Below are positions 3,894-43,293 of a stretch of DNA of 64,000 nucleotides, in pieces. Position 1 is the first letter of the stretch. The number at the start of each line of letters is the position of its first letter. A program made the translations under genes and the position numbers. This stretch comes from Sulfitobacter mediterraneus (GTDB taxonomy: Bacteria; Pseudomonadota; Alphaproteobacteria; Rhodobacterales; Rhodobacteraceae), in the NCBI RefSeq assembly GCF_003054325.1, contig NZ_QBKU01000005.1:62001-126000 (forward strand), in the 5' to 3' direction. The notes below the pieces were generated by a model, which was not told the origin of the DNA, did not search any database, and saw only the letters and a list, made by a program, of their open reading frames with translations.

Positions 3894-3946
3894 GGTATTG
3901 TCGCGGCTGGAGGGATCCAATCCCCCGGCTGCGGCGTTAGCCTCTT

Positions 3947-4945
3947 ATGATCAAGAAAACACTGCACGCAATTGCATGGCGGGCCGAGCGCCTGCTGGAC
4001 CGGATCAAAGGGCAGCGTGATCCACGGCGGATCATTGAGCCCTACATCGGTTATGCCAATCCCGATCATATCGTGGTGCGGGGCAGGGTGTTGACCGCCT
4101 TGCGCCGCAATGCGCCCACCCCCACCCAATCGCGGTGGGTCAATTTCAAGCAGATGTTCTCGCTGTTTCTGACGGACGAAGTGGCCAACGTTACGGTTCA
4201 ATCAGGCAAGATAAATGCGATCAGCGACGATGAAGGTTATTTCACGTTGCTATTGCCCCGAGACCGGCAAAGCGGCTGGGTGGATATCCCTGTCACCATC
4301 GCAGGGCAGACGGGGCAAACCCTTTGTCCGGTGCTGGTTCCGGACGGGACAGCACGGTTTGGTATCATTTCGGATATTGACGACACGGTTCTCAAAACCG
4401 GTGCCTATTCCCTGATCCGCAATCTGTGGAATTCGCTGACCGGCAATGCGCTGACGCGGCGGATCTTCCCTGATGCAGTCACTTGCCTGCAATTACTTTC
4501 AGAAGGGGGGCGGAACCCGGTCTATTATGTCAACTCAAGTCCGTGGAACCTGCACCACTTTCTTGACCGGATTTTTCATCTGGCTGATCTGGTGAAAGGC
4601 CCAAAATTTCTGCGCGATCTGGGGCTCAGCCAGACCCAATTTGTGACCGGCACCCATGGCGATCACAAAGGCGGCGCGATTGACCTTTTGATGGCGGCCA
4701 ATCCGCAGCTTGGCTATGTCTTGATGGGGGATACGGGCCAGCATGATGCAATGGTCTACCGCGATGCTGTACTGCGCCATCCGGGGCGGGTGATGGCGGT
4801 GGTTCTGCGCGAGCCAGGGCCGGGGCCAGATGCCCAAAGCCGCGCCGCGATGGACGAGATCCGCGGCGCAGGCGTTCCGGTGCTCAGCGCCGTTGATTTT
4901 GCAGGTGTTGCGCCGTCAATCGATGCCATCGCAGCGCAAGATTAG
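3947..4945 (+). CDS. App1-family (DUF2183) phosphatidate phosphatase-like protein
   Basis: The 332-residue protein has an N-terminal beta-rich region (about residues 1-130) and a C-terminal App1 catalytic domain of the HAD-like superfamily. The nucleophile motif DxDxT appears as SDIDDTVLKTG (about residues 141-151). It is followed by YYVNSSPWNLHHFLDRIF and a late acidic motif VLMGDTGQHDAMVYRD. Yeast App1p is a magnesium-dependent phosphatidate phosphatase; bacterial relatives are mostly uncharacterised, so the substrate here is not known. It lies 53 bp after tdh on the same strand and its stop overlaps the stop of the convergent gene at 4942. There is no signal peptide. Confidence 0.8.
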   Translation: MIKKTLHAIAWRAERLLDRIKGQRDPRRIIEPYIGYANPDHIVVRGRVLTALRRNAPTPTQSRWVNFKQMFSLFLTDEVANVTVQSGKINAISDDEGYFTLLLPRDRQSGWVDIPVTIAGQTGQTLCPVLVPDGTARFGIISDIDDTVLKTGAYSLIRNLWNSLTGNALTRRIFPDAVTCLQLLSEGGRNPVYYVNSSPWNLHHFLDRIFHLADLVKGPKFLRDLGLSQTQFVTGTHGDHKGGAIDLLMAANPQLGYVLMGDTGQHDAMVYRDAVLRHPGRVMAVVLREPGPGPDAQSRAAMDEIRGAGVPVLSAVDFAGVAPSIDAIAAQD

Positions 4946-37187: not shown

Positions 37188-37853
37188 TCACAGCGGCGTT
37201 GGGCTGCGCAAACCTGTCACCGTATCGGCCGCTACTGTTGATCCACCTTCCAAAACCAAGAGCGTTTGGCCGGAAATTATCTGTGCTTCTGTGACTTTTC
37301 CGTAGGTTTCGGCCGGCTCTGACAAGACTAACGCACCCTGAGCGCGGCTTTCGACTTCAAAACGGTAAAGGCCGGGCGGAAAGGGTGCGCCACCAGACGT
37401 GACGCCTGCCCACTGCACCGGTTCGGTGGAGTTGGGAATTGTGAGGCGCTGCACCTCGGCCCCGGCGGCGTCATAGACTACCAACTGCACATTGTCGGCC
37501 ACTGCTGCGGGAGTTGGCGAGATTGTCAGCGGCGCCCCGTCAAAGTGTACAGCCGCTGTTGTGCGGGCTTCCATCCCGATCCAACTGGACATCTGCGCCA
37601 TGTTGCTGGCCCCCAATTGGGCGGTGAGAGCCGTGAGCAAATCATTGGATTTGACCTGCTGTTCCACCATGGAAAACTGCGCCAGTTGGGCGGCATATTC
37701 CGAAGAATCGATGGGTTCTAGCGGATCTTGATACTTGGCCTGCGCGGTGAGCATTTGCAGAAACGTTTCAAAGTCGGATGAAAGAACTGCGTTGGTCTGT
37801 GGCGGTGGGGCCGGGGCGCCAGATGTTGGCGAGGTGGCGGCGGTGACGTCCAT
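37188..37853 (-). CDS. flgD: Flagellar hook assembly scaffold protein FlgD
   Basis: FlgD caps the growing hook and is needed to assemble FlgE. The 221-residue protein has the conserved N-terminal segment DFETFLQMLTAQAKYQDPLE and EYAAQLAQFSMVEQQVKSND, then a FlgD Ig-like/tudor region (GAPFPPGLYRFEVESRAQGA). It lies 11 bp after fliK on the same strand, as in many Rhodobacterales flagellar clusters. Its last codon is directly next to the end of the oxidase gene. Confidence 0.93.
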   Translation of the reverse strand: MDVTAATSPTSGAPAPPPQTNAVLSSDFETFLQMLTAQAKYQDPLEPIDSSEYAAQLAQFSMVEQQVKSNDLLTALTAQLGASNMAQMSSWIGMEARTTAAVHFDGAPLTISPTPAAVADNVQLVVYDAAGAEVQRLTIPNSTEPVQWAGVTSGGAPFPPGLYRFEVESRAQGALVLSEPAETYGKVTEAQIISGQTLLVLEGGSTVAADTVTGLRSPTPL

Positions 37854-37864
37854 GACGTTCCTTT

Positions 37865-39832
37865 CTATAGGCGCAAATCAAGACCACCGCCGCGCTGCGG
37901 CGGTGCGGTGGCCTGTACGGTGTTCGTTGGTGGCGGCAGATCTGGATTGCCTGTTTGTTGATCCGAGGTTTGATCCTTGGATGCGTCTGCTTGATCTTGG
38001 GGCGTTTGCCCCCCGGCGAAGGAGAAGGCGACGTCTTCAAACCCTAGCTTCAGGAACTCCTGATCCAGAATGCCGATATGGCGGCGCAGCAAATCCATTG
38101 TCTCGGGCCGTTCTGCAGTGACATGGACGGCGAGCCCTCCATCAGCGGAGACGAGATGTAATTTCAGGCGTCCCAACTCTTCGGGGTTCAGTGTGATTTC
38201 AACTGGTCGATTGGGAAGGGATTGCATCGCATCGGCAATCTGTTGCGCGACATGGCTGGCCAGCTCTGGACGGGCCATAACTGGGGTCATAACCGTGGGG
38301 CTGGCCGCCAGTTCTGTGCGAAAGGACAGGGCAAAGTCAGCCCCGGATGACAAATTGTTTCGCCCCTCGGTCCGTTGATCGACTTGCAGCTTGGCCATGG
38401 GTGCAGCGGCTGTTGTTGCGCCGATTTGCGATGTGGTTTGAGGGCTCGCTTGCATTTGGGCCTGCGGTTGCAATTGCGAGGCTTGCCGCGGTTCAATCTT
38501 GGAGGATTGCGCGGCGGCTGCCTTGGGAGGCGCTGGCAGATGCTCGACGTGTGCTTGAGAGAGGCGCGGTATTGGTTTGCGTGGAGGTGCAATTGGGCTT
38601 TGCTCAACATAGGAATGGCGCCGCCCGAGATCATTGAAACGATCAGCGGTCGAGGGTGTTTGGGCGCCCGTCTGGGTCTGCCACGTTACAGGCTGGATAG
38701 GACTTCGGAGTGCCGGCGCGACATTTGATGCGGGGAGCTCTGATGCTCGCGCAGTTTTGGTGCCTGCCGCATCGGGCTTTAGAGGATCGGCAAAACGGGC
38801 AGTTGGCAAAGGGTGCCGGATCTGCGGCTGGATCTTGTCATTGGGTACTGCGGGGGTTTCGCGATTGACGATTGGGGGCGGAGCCACATCATCCACGAAT
38901 GTTGTCATCGAACGAACCGGCGTTTTGTTCGTTGCGCGAACCTCAGGAGCCGCAGGTAGATCAGGCACTTGGTCTTGGACTTTTGGGGCCAGTGGTTGCA
39001 CTTGATTTTGCGTCAGAATTGGCCGGCCCGGCTTGCCGAATTCAGGAACTTCTTGCGGCATGTGTTGCACAGGTCTTATTTGCGTTTCGGAAGGATTTAC
39101 CTGCAAAGACCGTGCGTTTTCAGGTGTAGTCGTCGCCTCTCCTGCCGTCACCAAGGCTGGTTCGACCGGGCGCGGCTGAGTTGCGACAGCCGAAGGCTGT
39201 GATTGAGCTGGTGTTGGGGCATGCGCTGGCATTTGGAGTGATGTTTTTTGCCCATCCGCTTGCGTCGAGGGTCGTAGAATGATCCGTTGAACAATTGGTA
39301 GGGGCCGCACTTCATCTTTTGACACTACGCCGGTGTTGCCCCGAACCGGGGTCATGTTGGGGCGGTCTGGATCGAGATTTGTCTCCGGCACTGCGGAGCT
39401 GGCGGGGGTAGGCGTCGCGAGTTTCTTGCCATGATGCATCGCCGCCCATTCCTCCACCCCGGCCTGCGGAAACGTCGATTTTTCCCTTATTTCGGTTGGT
39501 TGGGATGACGTCGTCAGTGCCTGCTTTGGATTGCCCTGATCCGGGGTGTCCACCTGTTGGGCATCCAATATCTCACCCTCAATAGACTGCGCCTCAGGAT
39601 CATCTGCAGCATCGACGTGAGACGCGGGATCATTCTCAACAACCTTGGGGGCAGGTTCTGGAGCCGCTTTCTGCACCGGAACTTCAGCTGGCAACATGGC
39701 CGAAAACAGATCGCTGAATGCAATTCCCTCAGCATTTGCTGGCACCTCCGCAGGCGCCAACTGACCCAGCGCGCCCTGTTTTGCCACATCTGCGGTGCCC
39801 GTGCCCGTCAATAGACCTACCAATGATTGCAT
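37865..39832 (-). CDS. fliK: Flagellar hook-length control protein FliK
   Basis: The 655-residue protein is rich in Pro, Ala, Gln and Thr over its first 500 residues, as expected for the FliK ruler. The C-terminal Flg_hook domain is clear: NRPVEITLNPEELGRLKLHL, then ADGGLAVHVTAERPETMDLL, then RRHIGILDQEFLKLGFEDVA. FliK measures hook length and switches the export specificity from hook to filament. The start at 39832 is divergent from the flgJ-like gene by 115 bp. The gene appears intact even though its partner flgE is disrupted. Confidence 0.92.
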   Translation of the reverse strand: MQSLVGLLTGTGTADVAKQGALGQLAPAEVPANAEGIAFSDLFSAMLPAEVPVQKAAPEPAPKVVENDPASHVDAADDPEAQSIEGEILDAQQVDTPDQGNPKQALTTSSQPTEIREKSTFPQAGVEEWAAMHHGKKLATPTPASSAVPETNLDPDRPNMTPVRGNTGVVSKDEVRPLPIVQRIILRPSTQADGQKTSLQMPAHAPTPAQSQPSAVATQPRPVEPALVTAGEATTTPENARSLQVNPSETQIRPVQHMPQEVPEFGKPGRPILTQNQVQPLAPKVQDQVPDLPAAPEVRATNKTPVRSMTTFVDDVAPPPIVNRETPAVPNDKIQPQIRHPLPTARFADPLKPDAAGTKTARASELPASNVAPALRSPIQPVTWQTQTGAQTPSTADRFNDLGRRHSYVEQSPIAPPRKPIPRLSQAHVEHLPAPPKAAAAQSSKIEPRQASQLQPQAQMQASPQTTSQIGATTAAAPMAKLQVDQRTEGRNNLSSGADFALSFRTELAASPTVMTPVMARPELASHVAQQIADAMQSLPNRPVEITLNPEELGRLKLHLVSADGGLAVHVTAERPETMDLLRRHIGILDQEFLKLGFEDVAFSFAGGQTPQDQADASKDQTSDQQTGNPDLPPPTNTVQATAPPQRGGGLDLRL

Positions 39833-39947
39833 CGCATCCTCCGGAAGTTTCTGCCCGTGGCTGCTGGTATGCGCGATCGTCCTTACCTGTTGTTTACCGA
39901 AACAACGGATAACCGAGAAATATACGCAGCAATTTAAGGATCACACG

Positions 39948-40232
39948 ATGCAGATTGTGCCCGTCATCCCCCCTGAAGCCGCCGCGCATAGGGACCAGCA
40001 ATTACGGACTGCCGCGCAAGACCTTGAAACGACGTTTCTGGCAGAAATGCTCAAGTCAGCAGGGCTGGGGGAAACCCGTGGGGCCTTTGGCGGAGGTGCG
40101 GGCGAGGATCAGTTCGCCTCATTTCTGTTGCGTGAACAGGCGGCTGCAATGGTGCGTGCTGGTGGTATCGGACTAAGCGAAACAATTTTTGAATCCCTAA
40201 AGGAGAGAAATGATGCAACCCCAATCGACTGA
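39948..40232 (+). CDS. FlgJ-like rod-binding protein (short form)
   Basis: The 94-residue protein (ATG at 39948; the upstream-open frame crosses fliK) has the rod-binding domain of FlgJ: AAQDLETTFLAEMLKSAGLG, then GGGAGEDQFASFLLREQAAA. It lacks the C-terminal muramidase domain of enterobacterial FlgJ, as is normal in alphaproteobacteria. It is divergent from fliK and overlaps the flgN-like gene by 23 bp. Confidence 0.85.
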   Translation: MQIVPVIPPEAAAHRDQQLRTAAQDLETTFLAEMLKSAGLGETRGAFGGGAGEDQFASFLLREQAAAMVRAGGIGLSETIFESLKERNDATPID

Positions 40233-40575
40233 CCTAGCCTTGGACGACCTGAGCGCGTTGTTGGATGCGGAACGCGAGGCGCTCATTGGTGGCGATCTGG
40301 AAAGTTTGGCGGACATGTATTCGACCAAAGAAGCCCTGATCGGATCGGTGAACCAAAACCCCGAGAAACACGATCTGAAATCGCTGGAGGCCTTGGATCG
40401 TAAGGTGCGACGCAATCAGCTTTTGCTGGACGGGGCACTGGAAGGTATTCGCGAAGTCGCACGGCGCATGGCCGCCCTGCGAGAGACCAAAGGTTCATTG
40501 GAAACCTATGGTGCAGACGGCCGTAAACACAGCATCGAAATGAACGCCGAAACCTCGGTCGAAAAACGCGCCTAG
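40210..40575 (+). CDS. FlgN-like flagellar export chaperone
   Basis: The 121-residue helical protein begins at ATG 40210 after AAAGGAG, with another ATG at 40213. Its all-helical charged sequence (DDLSALLDAEREALIGGDLE, LEALDRKVRRNQLLLDGALE, REVARRMAALRETKGSLETY) matches FlgN-type chaperones that escort hook-filament junction proteins FlgK and FlgL. It lies between the flgJ-like gene and the flagellin start, the usual place. Its clients are not in the window. Confidence 0.78.
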   Translation: MMQPQSTDLALDDLSALLDAEREALIGGDLESLADMYSTKEALIGSVNQNPEKHDLKSLEALDRKVRRNQLLLDGALEGIREVARRMAALRETKGSLETYGADGRKHSIEMNAETSVEKRA

Positions 40576-40693: not shown

Positions 40694-42187
40694 TCAGACA
40701 AGGCGCTTGCACATGTCAGAACGACATTTCGTCCAGCCCCAGGGGGGTGGGACCTCACGGACGCAAAGCGTCAATGACTGAAGGAACGTGCTTATGTCGA
40801 GCATTCTTACAAACAATTCCGCAATGGTTGCGCTGCAAACGCTGCGGTCGATCAACAAAGATCTGGCGATGACGCAAAACGCGATCTCGACGGGTAAAGA
40901 CATCGGATCAGCCAAAGATAATTCCACGGTCTGGATCACCTTGGCGTTGGAGGTATAGGCCCGCTGGGTCTGGATCATCGAGGTCAACTCGCCCGCGACA
41001 TCAGTAGCGGATTCCTCAAGCGCAAAGGCCAGTACGTCCCCCGTTGGGCCATCGGACGCGTCCCATAAAAAGAAAGATCCACTGTCCACGGATGGTTGAA
41101 AGGTCTGGTGGTCAAGCGCGACCATCCCGTTGGGGTTTGGCAAATCGACCAGTGGCACCTGATAAATCCGGCTGGTGATCCCGGTGTCGAAATAGGCATA
41201 GACATAGCCGTTGGCGTCCACCTCAACGGAGGTCATATTGCCCACGGGCGATCCGTCTTTGGCAATCGACACCGGCGCAAAGTTGTCAGACAGCTGTGTG
41301 ATCCCGTCGCTTTCCCCGATTTGCCCAATGTCGATCTCAATCGGGCCTCCTGCGACATTGACGATCAGGCTGCCGGTCAGGGGATCATACGCCCCGCCGG
41401 ACACCGTGGTCACCGTTGCCAGGGTGCCGCCCGATGTTCGATCATCGGCAAAGGTCAAAGTGTATTCGCCGATCGTGGTAAGCGGATCGACAGAATCGGT
41501 CAGCGTCATCGTCCATTCGTTCGAAGATCCCGTCGCTGGAACCGTTGGTGTGAATGTAATGTTGACGCTTTCTGATGTACCGAGATTGCCGAAGTATTCG
41601 ATCGACAATTGCTGTGTGTCGCCGCTGGCTGATGCTTCGGTTTCCGTGGCAGGAAGGTTGATGCCCAAGGTCATATTTGTGGTCGGTTCACCCGAGAACA
41701 GATTGACGTTGATTTGCACCGGTTCCAGCCCGTCAGCAGTGTCGCGCGGATAGGTTGGGATTGTACCATCCGTATTTGCGGGCCATCCAAGCAGGACCAG
41801 TCCGGAGCTGGTGCGCAGATACCCTTCTGCATCGGTGCGGAACGAACCGGTTGTTGTCAAAAACAGCGAGGTATCGCCATTGGCCACCTCAACCTCTGTG
41901 GCTTGTGCCACCGGCAAAAAGCCTCGCCCTCGGATCGCCAGATCAGTGGCATTGTTGGTGGACACGAGCGGCCCACGTTCGTCGACCAACCGCTGGGTGT
42001 CTGCCCGTACGCCGCCAGCAGAATACGTGCCGCCCCGAGACGAGACGACTAGAGATTCAAAGTCGGTTTGCACCCGCTTGTATCCGTAGGTCGACGAATT
42101 TGCGATATTGTCAGAGATAGAGGCAAGGCGGGTTGCATTGGCCTGCAACCCAGCCACACCAGCGTTCAGGGAAGATGAGATTGTCAT
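40694..42187 (-). pseudogene. flgE: Flagellar hook protein gene flgE, 3' end lost and replaced by antisense flagellin DNA
   Basis: Residues 1 to about 421 (from the ATG at 42187) are FlgE: MTISSSLNAGVAGLQANATR, then LASISDNIANSSTYGYKRVQ, through to TSMIQTQRAYTSNAKVIQTV. An intact FlgE continues after QTV with roughly 15 residues of the D0 helix (a DxMLDxLxNLKR-like end). Here the frame instead runs into the reverse complement of the flagellin start and on to 40694, adding 76 unrelated residues (ELSLADPMSLPVEIAFCVIA and onward). The last D0 helix is thus lost, so the hook is probably not functional. Upstream of the junction the gene looks undamaged. Confidence 0.85.
40794..40958 (+). pseudogene. 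fliC: 5' fragment of flagellin gene, joined to flgE antisense
   Basis: From the ATG at 40794, after AAGGAACG, the first 47 codons are alphaproteobacterial flagellin: MSSILTNNSAMVALQTLRSI, NKDLAMTQNAISTGKDIGSA, KDNSTVW. After W47 (codon at 40932-40934) the sequence is the reverse complement of flgE, and the frame stops at 40956-40958 (ITLALEV, TAG). All of the D0/D1/D2 region and the C-terminus are missing. The 218 bp before it (40576-40793) hold the flagellin promoter and leader with no other gene. Confidence 0.88.
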
Positions 42188-42294
42188 GGAAGCGCCTTTC
42201 TGCGGTGGCAATCAACGTTGCCCCAACCCATAGCCGCCATGGACTTAAGGGCAGGCTAACAGATAAAATGCGTCTTATTCCGCCACCCTTTTGA

Positions 42295-43149
42295 TCAATT
42301 CCGCTTGGTATCCCGCAGCAAGATCACCTCGATCCTGTTGTTGCGCCGCGCCATTGGATCACGCACCGCCAAAGATCGGTCGGCATGTCCTGTCACACGC
42401 TGGACCCGCTTGGCATCGATCGACACCTCTTCAAGCAGGTGACGCATCTGATCGGCGCGATTGGCAGACCGTTCCCAAACAACACTTTGCGCCAACACCA
42501 CGGGGTCTGATCGTACATGCCCGCCAATGGCAATGCGGTTCGTCACGGTCTTGGCCAACTCTGCAATCACCGCCGCCAGATCCCTAAGCAGTTGCGCAGG
42601 TTCATCATCCTCCGCTTTAAACAGAGGGACATCCTCAAGCTCGAACAGCTCGATCACCAACCCCTCGTCGGTGATCCGCGTGACAATATGCTTGAGAGCG
42701 TTTTCCATCACCATGGTTTCCCCGCCACGGCCCATCAACATAGCCTCAACCGCCTCAACCGCCTCAACCGCCTCCTGCTCGGCGTTCTTTTCGCCCTCGG
42801 ACGTGCCACTGGCCCCGCGCGCCTGATCCTCCATCGAGGAATGCGGTGCAGTCGCGCCAGTGCCGTTTTTCGGCAAGGTCATTTCCGAAAAAATACTCTC
42901 GCCGCCAAAGGCGCCATTGCCACCACCGGAGACCCGATTAATCGGAATCGTCGGTGAAAAATAATCCGCGATCCCTTTGCGTTGTTGTTCGGTTGTTGCA
43001 TTCAGCAGCCACATCAACATGAAAAACGCCATCATCGCTGTCACGAAATCCGCATAGGCAACTTTCCAGGCACCCCCATGGTGCCCGCCGCCTGCGATGA
43101 CCTTTTTCTTCTTGATGATGACTGGCGCTGCATTTGCTTGCGCACTCAT
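42295..43149 (-). CDS. motB: Flagellar motor protein MotB
   Basis: The 284-residue protein (ATG at 43149; GTG at 43158 is an alternative) has a basic N-terminus, one membrane helix GGAWKVAYADFVTAMMAFFM with the proton-carrying aspartate in YADF, and a C-terminal OmpA/MotB domain (GHVRSDP, ANRADQMRHLLEEVSIDAKR, RNNRIEVILL). It anchors the stator to peptidoglycan. The linker contains a tandem VEA repeat. It is 107 bp upstream of the damaged flgE on the same strand. No motA is in the window. Confidence 0.9.
   Translation of the reverse strand: MSAQANAAPVIIKKKKVIAGGGHHGGAWKVAYADFVTAMMAFFMLMWLLNATTEQQRKGIADYFSPTIPINRVSGGGNGAFGGESIFSEMTLPKNGTGATAPHSSMEDQARGASGTSEGEKNAEQEAVEAVEAVEAMLMGRGGETMVMENALKHIVTRITDEGLVIELFELEDVPLFKAEDDEPAQLLRDLAAVIAELAKTVTNRIAIGGHVRSDPVVLAQSVVWERSANRADQMRHLLEEVSIDAKRVQRVTGHADRSLAVRDPMARRNNRIEVILLRDTKRN
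42743..42774 (-). repeat. In-frame 9-bp tandem repeat inside motB
   Basis: GCCTCAACC is repeated three times plus a partial fourth copy (on the plus strand; GGTTGAGGC on the gene strand), coding for Glu-Ala-Val repeats in the linker between membrane helix and OmpA domain. Copy changes would keep frame and alter linker length. Confidence 0.85.
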
Positions 43150-43293
43150 CTCCACCACCTCTTTTCACCCGACAACAGGTTTACGGCAGCAGGGCTTACC
43201 GCCTGCTTAACAAGTTCAATTGTCACGATTTGATTGTGGCTCTTGCGCTTTGCCCGGACCTGACGCCAGATGGCAGCGAACGGAGAGCCTTGC

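Follow-up and report, generated by a model that had tools for sequence, protein, structure and literature searches.

The closest described system is the fla1-type flagellar gene cluster of Rhodobacterales (Tomasch et al., 2025; PMC12363192), whose order, motB-flgE-K-L-I ... fliC ... flgD, is also that of the intact relatives studied here. In the accessible part of that paper, fla1 is reported to be lost sporadically and independently, in 7/50, 8/35 and 3/50 genomes of three clades, and fla2 clusters, often plasmid-borne, are described in Sulfitobacter. Loss of fla1 is presented there as plain absence, whereas exact joints were found in the present analysis; joints common to several genomes are not mentioned in that part of the text, nor does the accessible part of the preprint text (PMC11974857) mention remnants, pseudogenes or truncation. 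A literature search, with most subscription papers outside its reach, found nothing on recurrent exact fla1 joints.

Two other types of event resemble those reported below. Short direct repeats can be hot spots of deletion and likewise give recurrent identical deletions in which no mobile element takes part, and programmed or site-specific excision likewise has constant end points and arises anew in many lineages. When a large gene cluster is lost independently on several occasions, the end points are expected to differ.

The window analysed here is a stretch of 64,000 nucleotides from Sulfitobacter mediterraneus. As judged by comparison with intact relatives, its flagellar locus is the remnant of a fla1-type cluster after a deletion of ~26 kb between fliC and flgE. 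Flanks and gene order agree with those of the relatives (DAO, flgD, fliK, flgJ, flgN, fliC ... flgE, motB, trhO, pncB), in which 26,157 bp (G019) and 25,911 bp (G059) separate the two halves. A first-pass annotation of the window had proposed that fliC and flgE are joined head-on and that the genes between them are deleted. The joint is real, with matches to Flagellin_N on the plus strand and to FlgE domains on the minus strand, and the distance of about 26 kb in intact relatives bears out the deletion. Genes retained on the fliC side are flgD (37188..37853, minus strand) and fliK (37865..39832, minus strand), both open frames, a flgJ-like gene of the Rod-binding type (39795..40232, plus strand), the true start of which is probably within the ORF, and a flgN-like gene (40210..40575, plus strand), which scores 29.1 bits against Pfam FlgN, slightly below the 30.5 cut-off. 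On the flgE side, motB (42295..43158, minus strand) is an open frame, retained in genomes with this joint. All five neighbours had been described as intact, and they are indeed open in the window. The window fliK is 38.5% identical to that of G022; the flanking genes are 87-99% identical.

The joint, hereafter joint A, lies at 40923..40927, where the TC(C) of fliC Ser44 abuts CAC, the reverse complement of the final retained flgE codon (Val). To its left, fliC codons 1-44 (40794..40925, plus strand), the retained 5' end of flagellin, match positions 1-44 of the 139 of the Pfam Flagellin_N profile. The fragment reads MSSILTNNSAMVALQTLRSINKDLAMTQNAISTGKDIGSAKDNS from 40794, and its open frame continues across antisense flgE as TVWITLALEV up to a stop at 40958. 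To the right, flgE (40925..42187, minus strand) keeps 421 codons from an ATG at 42187 and has lost its 3' end at the joint, namely the last 12 codons, which intact relatives read as DEMLQETTNIKR after AKVIQTV. The flgE frame extends through antisense fliC as far as 40694, and the minus-strand ORF (40694-42211) has Pfam matches to Flg_bb_rod, the FlgE/F/G D1 domain and Flg_bbr_C, the last ending early, at profile position 36 of 46. The 47 fliC codons initially counted are reduced to 44, codons 45-47 (TVW) being flgE read backwards, and of the range first given for the junction, 40923-40934, the part 40923-40927 contains the joint and the remainder does not. Microhomology had also been proposed at CCACGGTCTGG. 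These 11 bases are derived from flgE, because the fliC codons of intact relatives read TCN-GCN-ATC/GTC-TGG at this place; the protein reads DNSAIW or similar in intact Sulfitobacter fliC and DN(S/A)AVW in 16 genes from other genera, and TVW occurs in neither. The bases common to both genes are TC(N), within an imperfect repeat, TCNRCNRTCTGG, that matches at 9/12 positions in both G019 and G059.

In G019, a Pfam scan of 20 proteins from the missing interval (2 of them gave no match) identified the rest of fliC, FlaF, FlbT, a DUF1217 protein, a T3SS-type ATPase (fliI), flgF/flgG-like genes, ChapFlgA, FlgH, FlhB, FHIPEP (flhA), MotA, FliL, FliF, FliP, FlgI, a Flagellin_C protein (flgL by position) and FlgK. 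FlhA alone served as the genome-wide test for core genes elsewhere. Its fla1-type form (74-100% identity) is present in 25/62 Sulfitobacter genomes and in 0/14 of those carrying joint A or the second joint, B, described below. The first-pass annotation had advised a search for the remaining flagellar genes in the rest of the assembly; this genome contains no fla1-type FlhA, which speaks against a move of the fla1 core to another place in it. The further prediction, that the strain makes no normal hook or filament, does not follow. Loss of motility need not result from joint A, because contig C14 of the same genome carries another, divergent flagellar cluster, in which most G019 core proteins have homologues (about 28-52% identity) and which has an FlhA at 39%. 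Of the 14 A or B carriers of Sulfitobacter, 7 have a divergent FlhA and 7 have none; outside the genus, the check covered 18 carriers (12 A, 6 B) and gave an FlhA at 36-39% in 4 and none in the other 14. The 7/14 and 14/18 carriers with no detectable FlhA would therefore have no flagellar export.

Joint A is spanned by one alignment in 7 of the 62 Sulfitobacter genomes (the window genome G000, and G015, G076, G001, G052, G061 and G067), and is therefore not due to chance. Its register is identical in all seven, the six others having 65-75% DNA identity to the window. A family sample of 394 genomes, about one per genus, comprised 392 from genera other than Sulfitobacter, of which at least 12 have joint A in the same register, confirmed base by base; three of these are one-contig assemblies (G217, G445 and G345). 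One of the carriers is a metagenome contig, JAEPNQ010000015.1. The size of this contig, 61,053, agrees with the figure in the record title, therefore nothing was excised after assembly. A chimeric assembly had been put forward as the main alternative to a deletion; the presence of the same joint in six further Sulfitobacter and 12 other-genus genomes, three of them in one contig, speaks against it. A single strain-private event is rejected on the same six Sulfitobacter genomes. Acquisition of the finished joint from a mobile source (plasmid, phage or virus) was also considered, and no such sequence was found: joint A was spanned by none of the 15 plasmid records listed among 16 matching, by no phage sequence and by no viral contig of IMG/VR.

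Joint B is another head-on fusion, with a larger loss, about 28 kb. Here the fliC leader and the AT of the fliC ATG are fused to the reverse complement of motB codons 1-34, the only motB codons kept. In window coordinates, the left point of these other genomes is at 40794..40796 (plus strand), between the AT and the G of the fliC start codon, and the right point at 43056..43057 (minus strand), between motB codons 34 (Ala of WKVA) and 35 (Tyr), codon 34 being counted from 43158 and equal to codon 31 counted from the ATG. Joint B was found in one register in 7/62 Sulfitobacter genomes (G007, G008, G014, G022, G041, G062 and G063), including a one-contig assembly (G014). It was also found in 7 of the 8 other-genus candidates with short motB frames that were fetched, hence in at least 7 other genera; the eighth candidate, L271, gave no readable match. 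By eye, a Shine-Dalgarno-like GGA is present in 14/14 joint B sequences read, and the ATG is gone in 9 of them. The fliC leader (40701..40793, plus strand) is conserved, also in genomes that have no fliC. Over 40701-40796 of the window, its conservation exceeds that of the surrounding coding sequence (95% over 96 bases to G022, 86% to G014), and it contains a GGACGCAAAGCGTC-like inverted repeat and persists in joint B genomes devoid of fliC. It is perhaps a regulatory RNA element.

The 62 Sulfitobacter genomes comprise 25 with fla1-type FlhA, 7 with joint A, 7 with joint B, 16 from which the locus is cleanly absent, and 7 others. The last group consists of G002 (a flgF-fliF deletion), G060 (a fliC insertion), and G005, G017, G021, G066 and G072, left untyped where contigs end or sequence is missing. 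Of the 16 loci that are partly broken and of assignable type, 14 are thus A or B. In contig C1 of G002 (L276, about 3898-4800), flgF is joined near codon 117, out of frame, to fliF near codon 355, and the fla1 cluster of this genome is divided between two distant places. In G060 (contig C190, L279), an insertion breaks fliC after about codon 34, and flgE lies at the contig end; the inserted sequence looks like an IS3-type element, as judged by eye from the protein. In six of the clean-absence genomes (G012, G013, G042, G047, G057 and G064; loci L083, L080, L082, L087, L088 and L103), the site of the flagellar genes is occupied by an ORF beginning MKIAMIGTGYVGLVSG, which we take to be UDP-glucose dehydrogenase.

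Sequences at the joints were compared in the two intact genomes G019 and G059, and no direct repeat better than chance was found at the end points of either A or B. At joint B, 5-6/12 bases are in common. Other pairs of 12-mers drawn from the same regions match at 10/12 positions or more, 163 of them in G019 and 211 in G059; homology alone therefore cannot pick out the points used at A and B, since these other pairs match better. No motif common to all four joint points was seen by eye, and a core sequence common to both ends, as for site-specific excision, was not found. The flgE copy of the imperfect repeat is kept in all 19 joint A sequences read (7 + 12). The antisense frame of flagellin (fliC codons 30-50, family-wide) resembles the FlgE C-terminus (AELS / TVELS), and chimeric FlgE-antisense queries match intact flagellins in about 300 genomes.

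A tree of the flanks was built from pncB, pncA and trhO of 60 genomes, and is a tree of the locus, not of whole genomes. It contains no A-A and no B-B sister tips. Both joints occur in species scattered among intact relatives, and sit at the original place, bordered by the same flanking genes. Joint B carriers are sisters of intact genomes in the pairs G007-G058, G041-G059 and G008-G019 (support 100 each), joint A carriers in the pairs G061-G048 (100), G001-G040 (98) and G015-G050 (96), and an A carrier is sister to a B carrier in G000-G022 (100). The flgE tree again gives the pair G001-G040, and places intact G020 beside G061 (99 each). By eye, the flanks of joint B follow the carrier's own intact sister up to 6-12 bases from the joint. 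Identical end points are therefore present, for A and for B, in lineages that are separate in the trees, from which we infer that the events were independent; the sample holds one genome per species.

The genes left over at these loci are mostly undecayed. Sequence on both sides of the joint is available for 13 carriers, and in all of them flgD, fliK, flgJ and flgN are open frames; in G052 fliK is short (241 aa) and flgE and motB have frame breaks, and the flgJ alignment of G076 has a stop at column 93 of 96. N/S changes were alike on loss and intact sister branches, with 22/229 versus 28/254 for flgE, 31/131 versus 35/130 for motB, and, for flgN, 8/25 versus 15/28 at A and 12/63 versus 9/51 at B. 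An opposite trend, with small numbers, was observed between joint A loss and intact branches for the fliK C-terminus (16/28 versus 7/32) and flgD (5/18 versus 2/17). For fliC codons 1-43, three triples gave 6/23 on loss and 2/23 on intact branches, which is no clear difference. CheW is present in 12/14 A or B carriers, 14/25 intact genomes and 1/16 clean-absence genomes. Given so little decay in the left-over genes, and CheW in most carriers, each fla1 loss is probably recent. The first-pass annotation had called the event recent, which fits each carrier, with its open left-overs and CheW, and fails for one event private to the strain.

We tentatively favour, with a probability of about 0.42, a recurrent, sequence-directed deletion of the fla1 core at fixed points over old deletion alleles that have been reshuffled. 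Cells of Rhodobacteraceae would repeatedly lose the fla1 core, the sequence-directed deletion joining the same points every time, and non-fla1 forms would arise continually and seldom last until decay or speciation. At joint A, template switching in the weak imperfect repeat TCNRCNRTCTGG may help. Two coding motifs that are conserved, DNS-A-V/I-W in fliC and VIQTV in antisense flgE, have this repeat in common, and the constant presence of its flgE copy in the product would fit a switch after flgE had been copied first. For joint B, no homology was found on which a template-switch account could be based. We know of no enzyme or recognition site for these deletions. Site-specific recombinases normally require a shared core, and joint B sits badly with such an enzyme because it has none (5-6/12 bases). 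The fixed points are not the sole route of fla1 breakage either, as G002 has an unrelated deletion and G060 an insertion in fliC.

The main rival explanation, which we hold to be somewhat unlikely, is that A and B are old, each going back to one or a few origins, and that the deletion alleles persist within species beside intact ones, recombination keeping their flanks native and their left-overs fresh. Short deletion alleles would transfer as small fragments more easily than the 26-kb intact segment. Identical joints devoid of homology would then require just one founding event each, and undecayed left-over genes would be accounted for. Three A carriers (G015, G052 and G076) have, beside the joint, a fliC tract unlike that of intact Sulfitobacter, with values of 0.795 among themselves versus 0.659 (max-trio permutation p 0.048), and a Ser after GK in fliC is found in 3/7 A carriers versus 0/21 intact genomes; this hints at shared descent of the allele in the trio. 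However, when all 7 A carriers were considered, in a fliC tract ending at nt 131 so that flgE-derived bases were excluded, no clustering was detected (p 0.57), and neither was it for B carriers on the motB side (p 0.51 and 0.39). Recent spread between species is not seen, because near-identical flanks do not occur in any pair of A or B loci: the best value, 0.85 (fliC nt 61-131), is with an intact genome. The B carriers of other genera have leader sequences unrelated right up to the joint, and the polymorphism would have to persist across the whole family.

A bolder proposal, quite unlikely in our opinion, is that Rhodobacterales possess a programmed, sequence-directed excision of the 26-28 kb fla1 core at fixed points, which would repeatedly yield a non-swimming (or fla2-only) form and act as a genetic swim-or-stick switch. 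In contrast with known programmed excision, there is no shared core at B, no known recombinase, and the excised genes were not seen elsewhere, by the FlhA test only.

Ordinary slippage between short repeats, in which similar bases in fliC and flgE would make a mutational hot spot, has little likelihood as an account of both joints. It fits the imperfect repeat TCNRCNRTCTGG at A (9/12 in G019 and G059), the resemblance of antisense fliC to the FlgE C-terminus in protein searches, and the presence of the flgE repeat copy in all 7 + 12 A products, as template switching predicts, but the 163 (G019) and 211 (G059) 12-mer pairs matching at 10/12 or more were not seen to be used, and B has no such repeat. 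Compared with the usual repeat hot spots, A has a weak repeat and B has none, the deleted segment measures 26-28 kb, and the event recurs across genera.

It is decidedly improbable that a new function has been taken on by the left-overs (flgD, fliK, flgJ and flgN, and in A also truncated flgE and motB), A and B being stable working states. Frames are open in most carriers, flgE is open up to the joint in 12/13 other-genus loci checked, and dN/dS between G000 (A) and G022 (B) is 0.08 for flgD and 0.04 for flgN, at a flank dS of 0.4-0.9. Against this, FlhA is not detectable in 7/14 Sulfitobacter and 14/18 checked other-genus carriers, the locus is wholly absent from 16/62 genomes, flgE and motB have frame breaks in G052, and the fliC leader and start region are kept where flagellin is not, for which youth of the losses is the simpler account. 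An assembly or database artefact uniting the two halves is highly improbable: exact, undecayed joints found at tips only do resemble the product of a cutting artefact, but they occur in isolates, in one-contig assemblies (A in G217, G445 and G345; B in G014) and in a metagenome contig of title-matching size, and the bases on either side of the joint diverge with the species.

Two exact joints, one of which has no detectable homology, in many species and genera would imply an unfamiliar process of sequence-directed deletion or else deletion alleles with a longer life than species. In either case, the interpretation of flagellar loss in this ecologically important marine family would alter.
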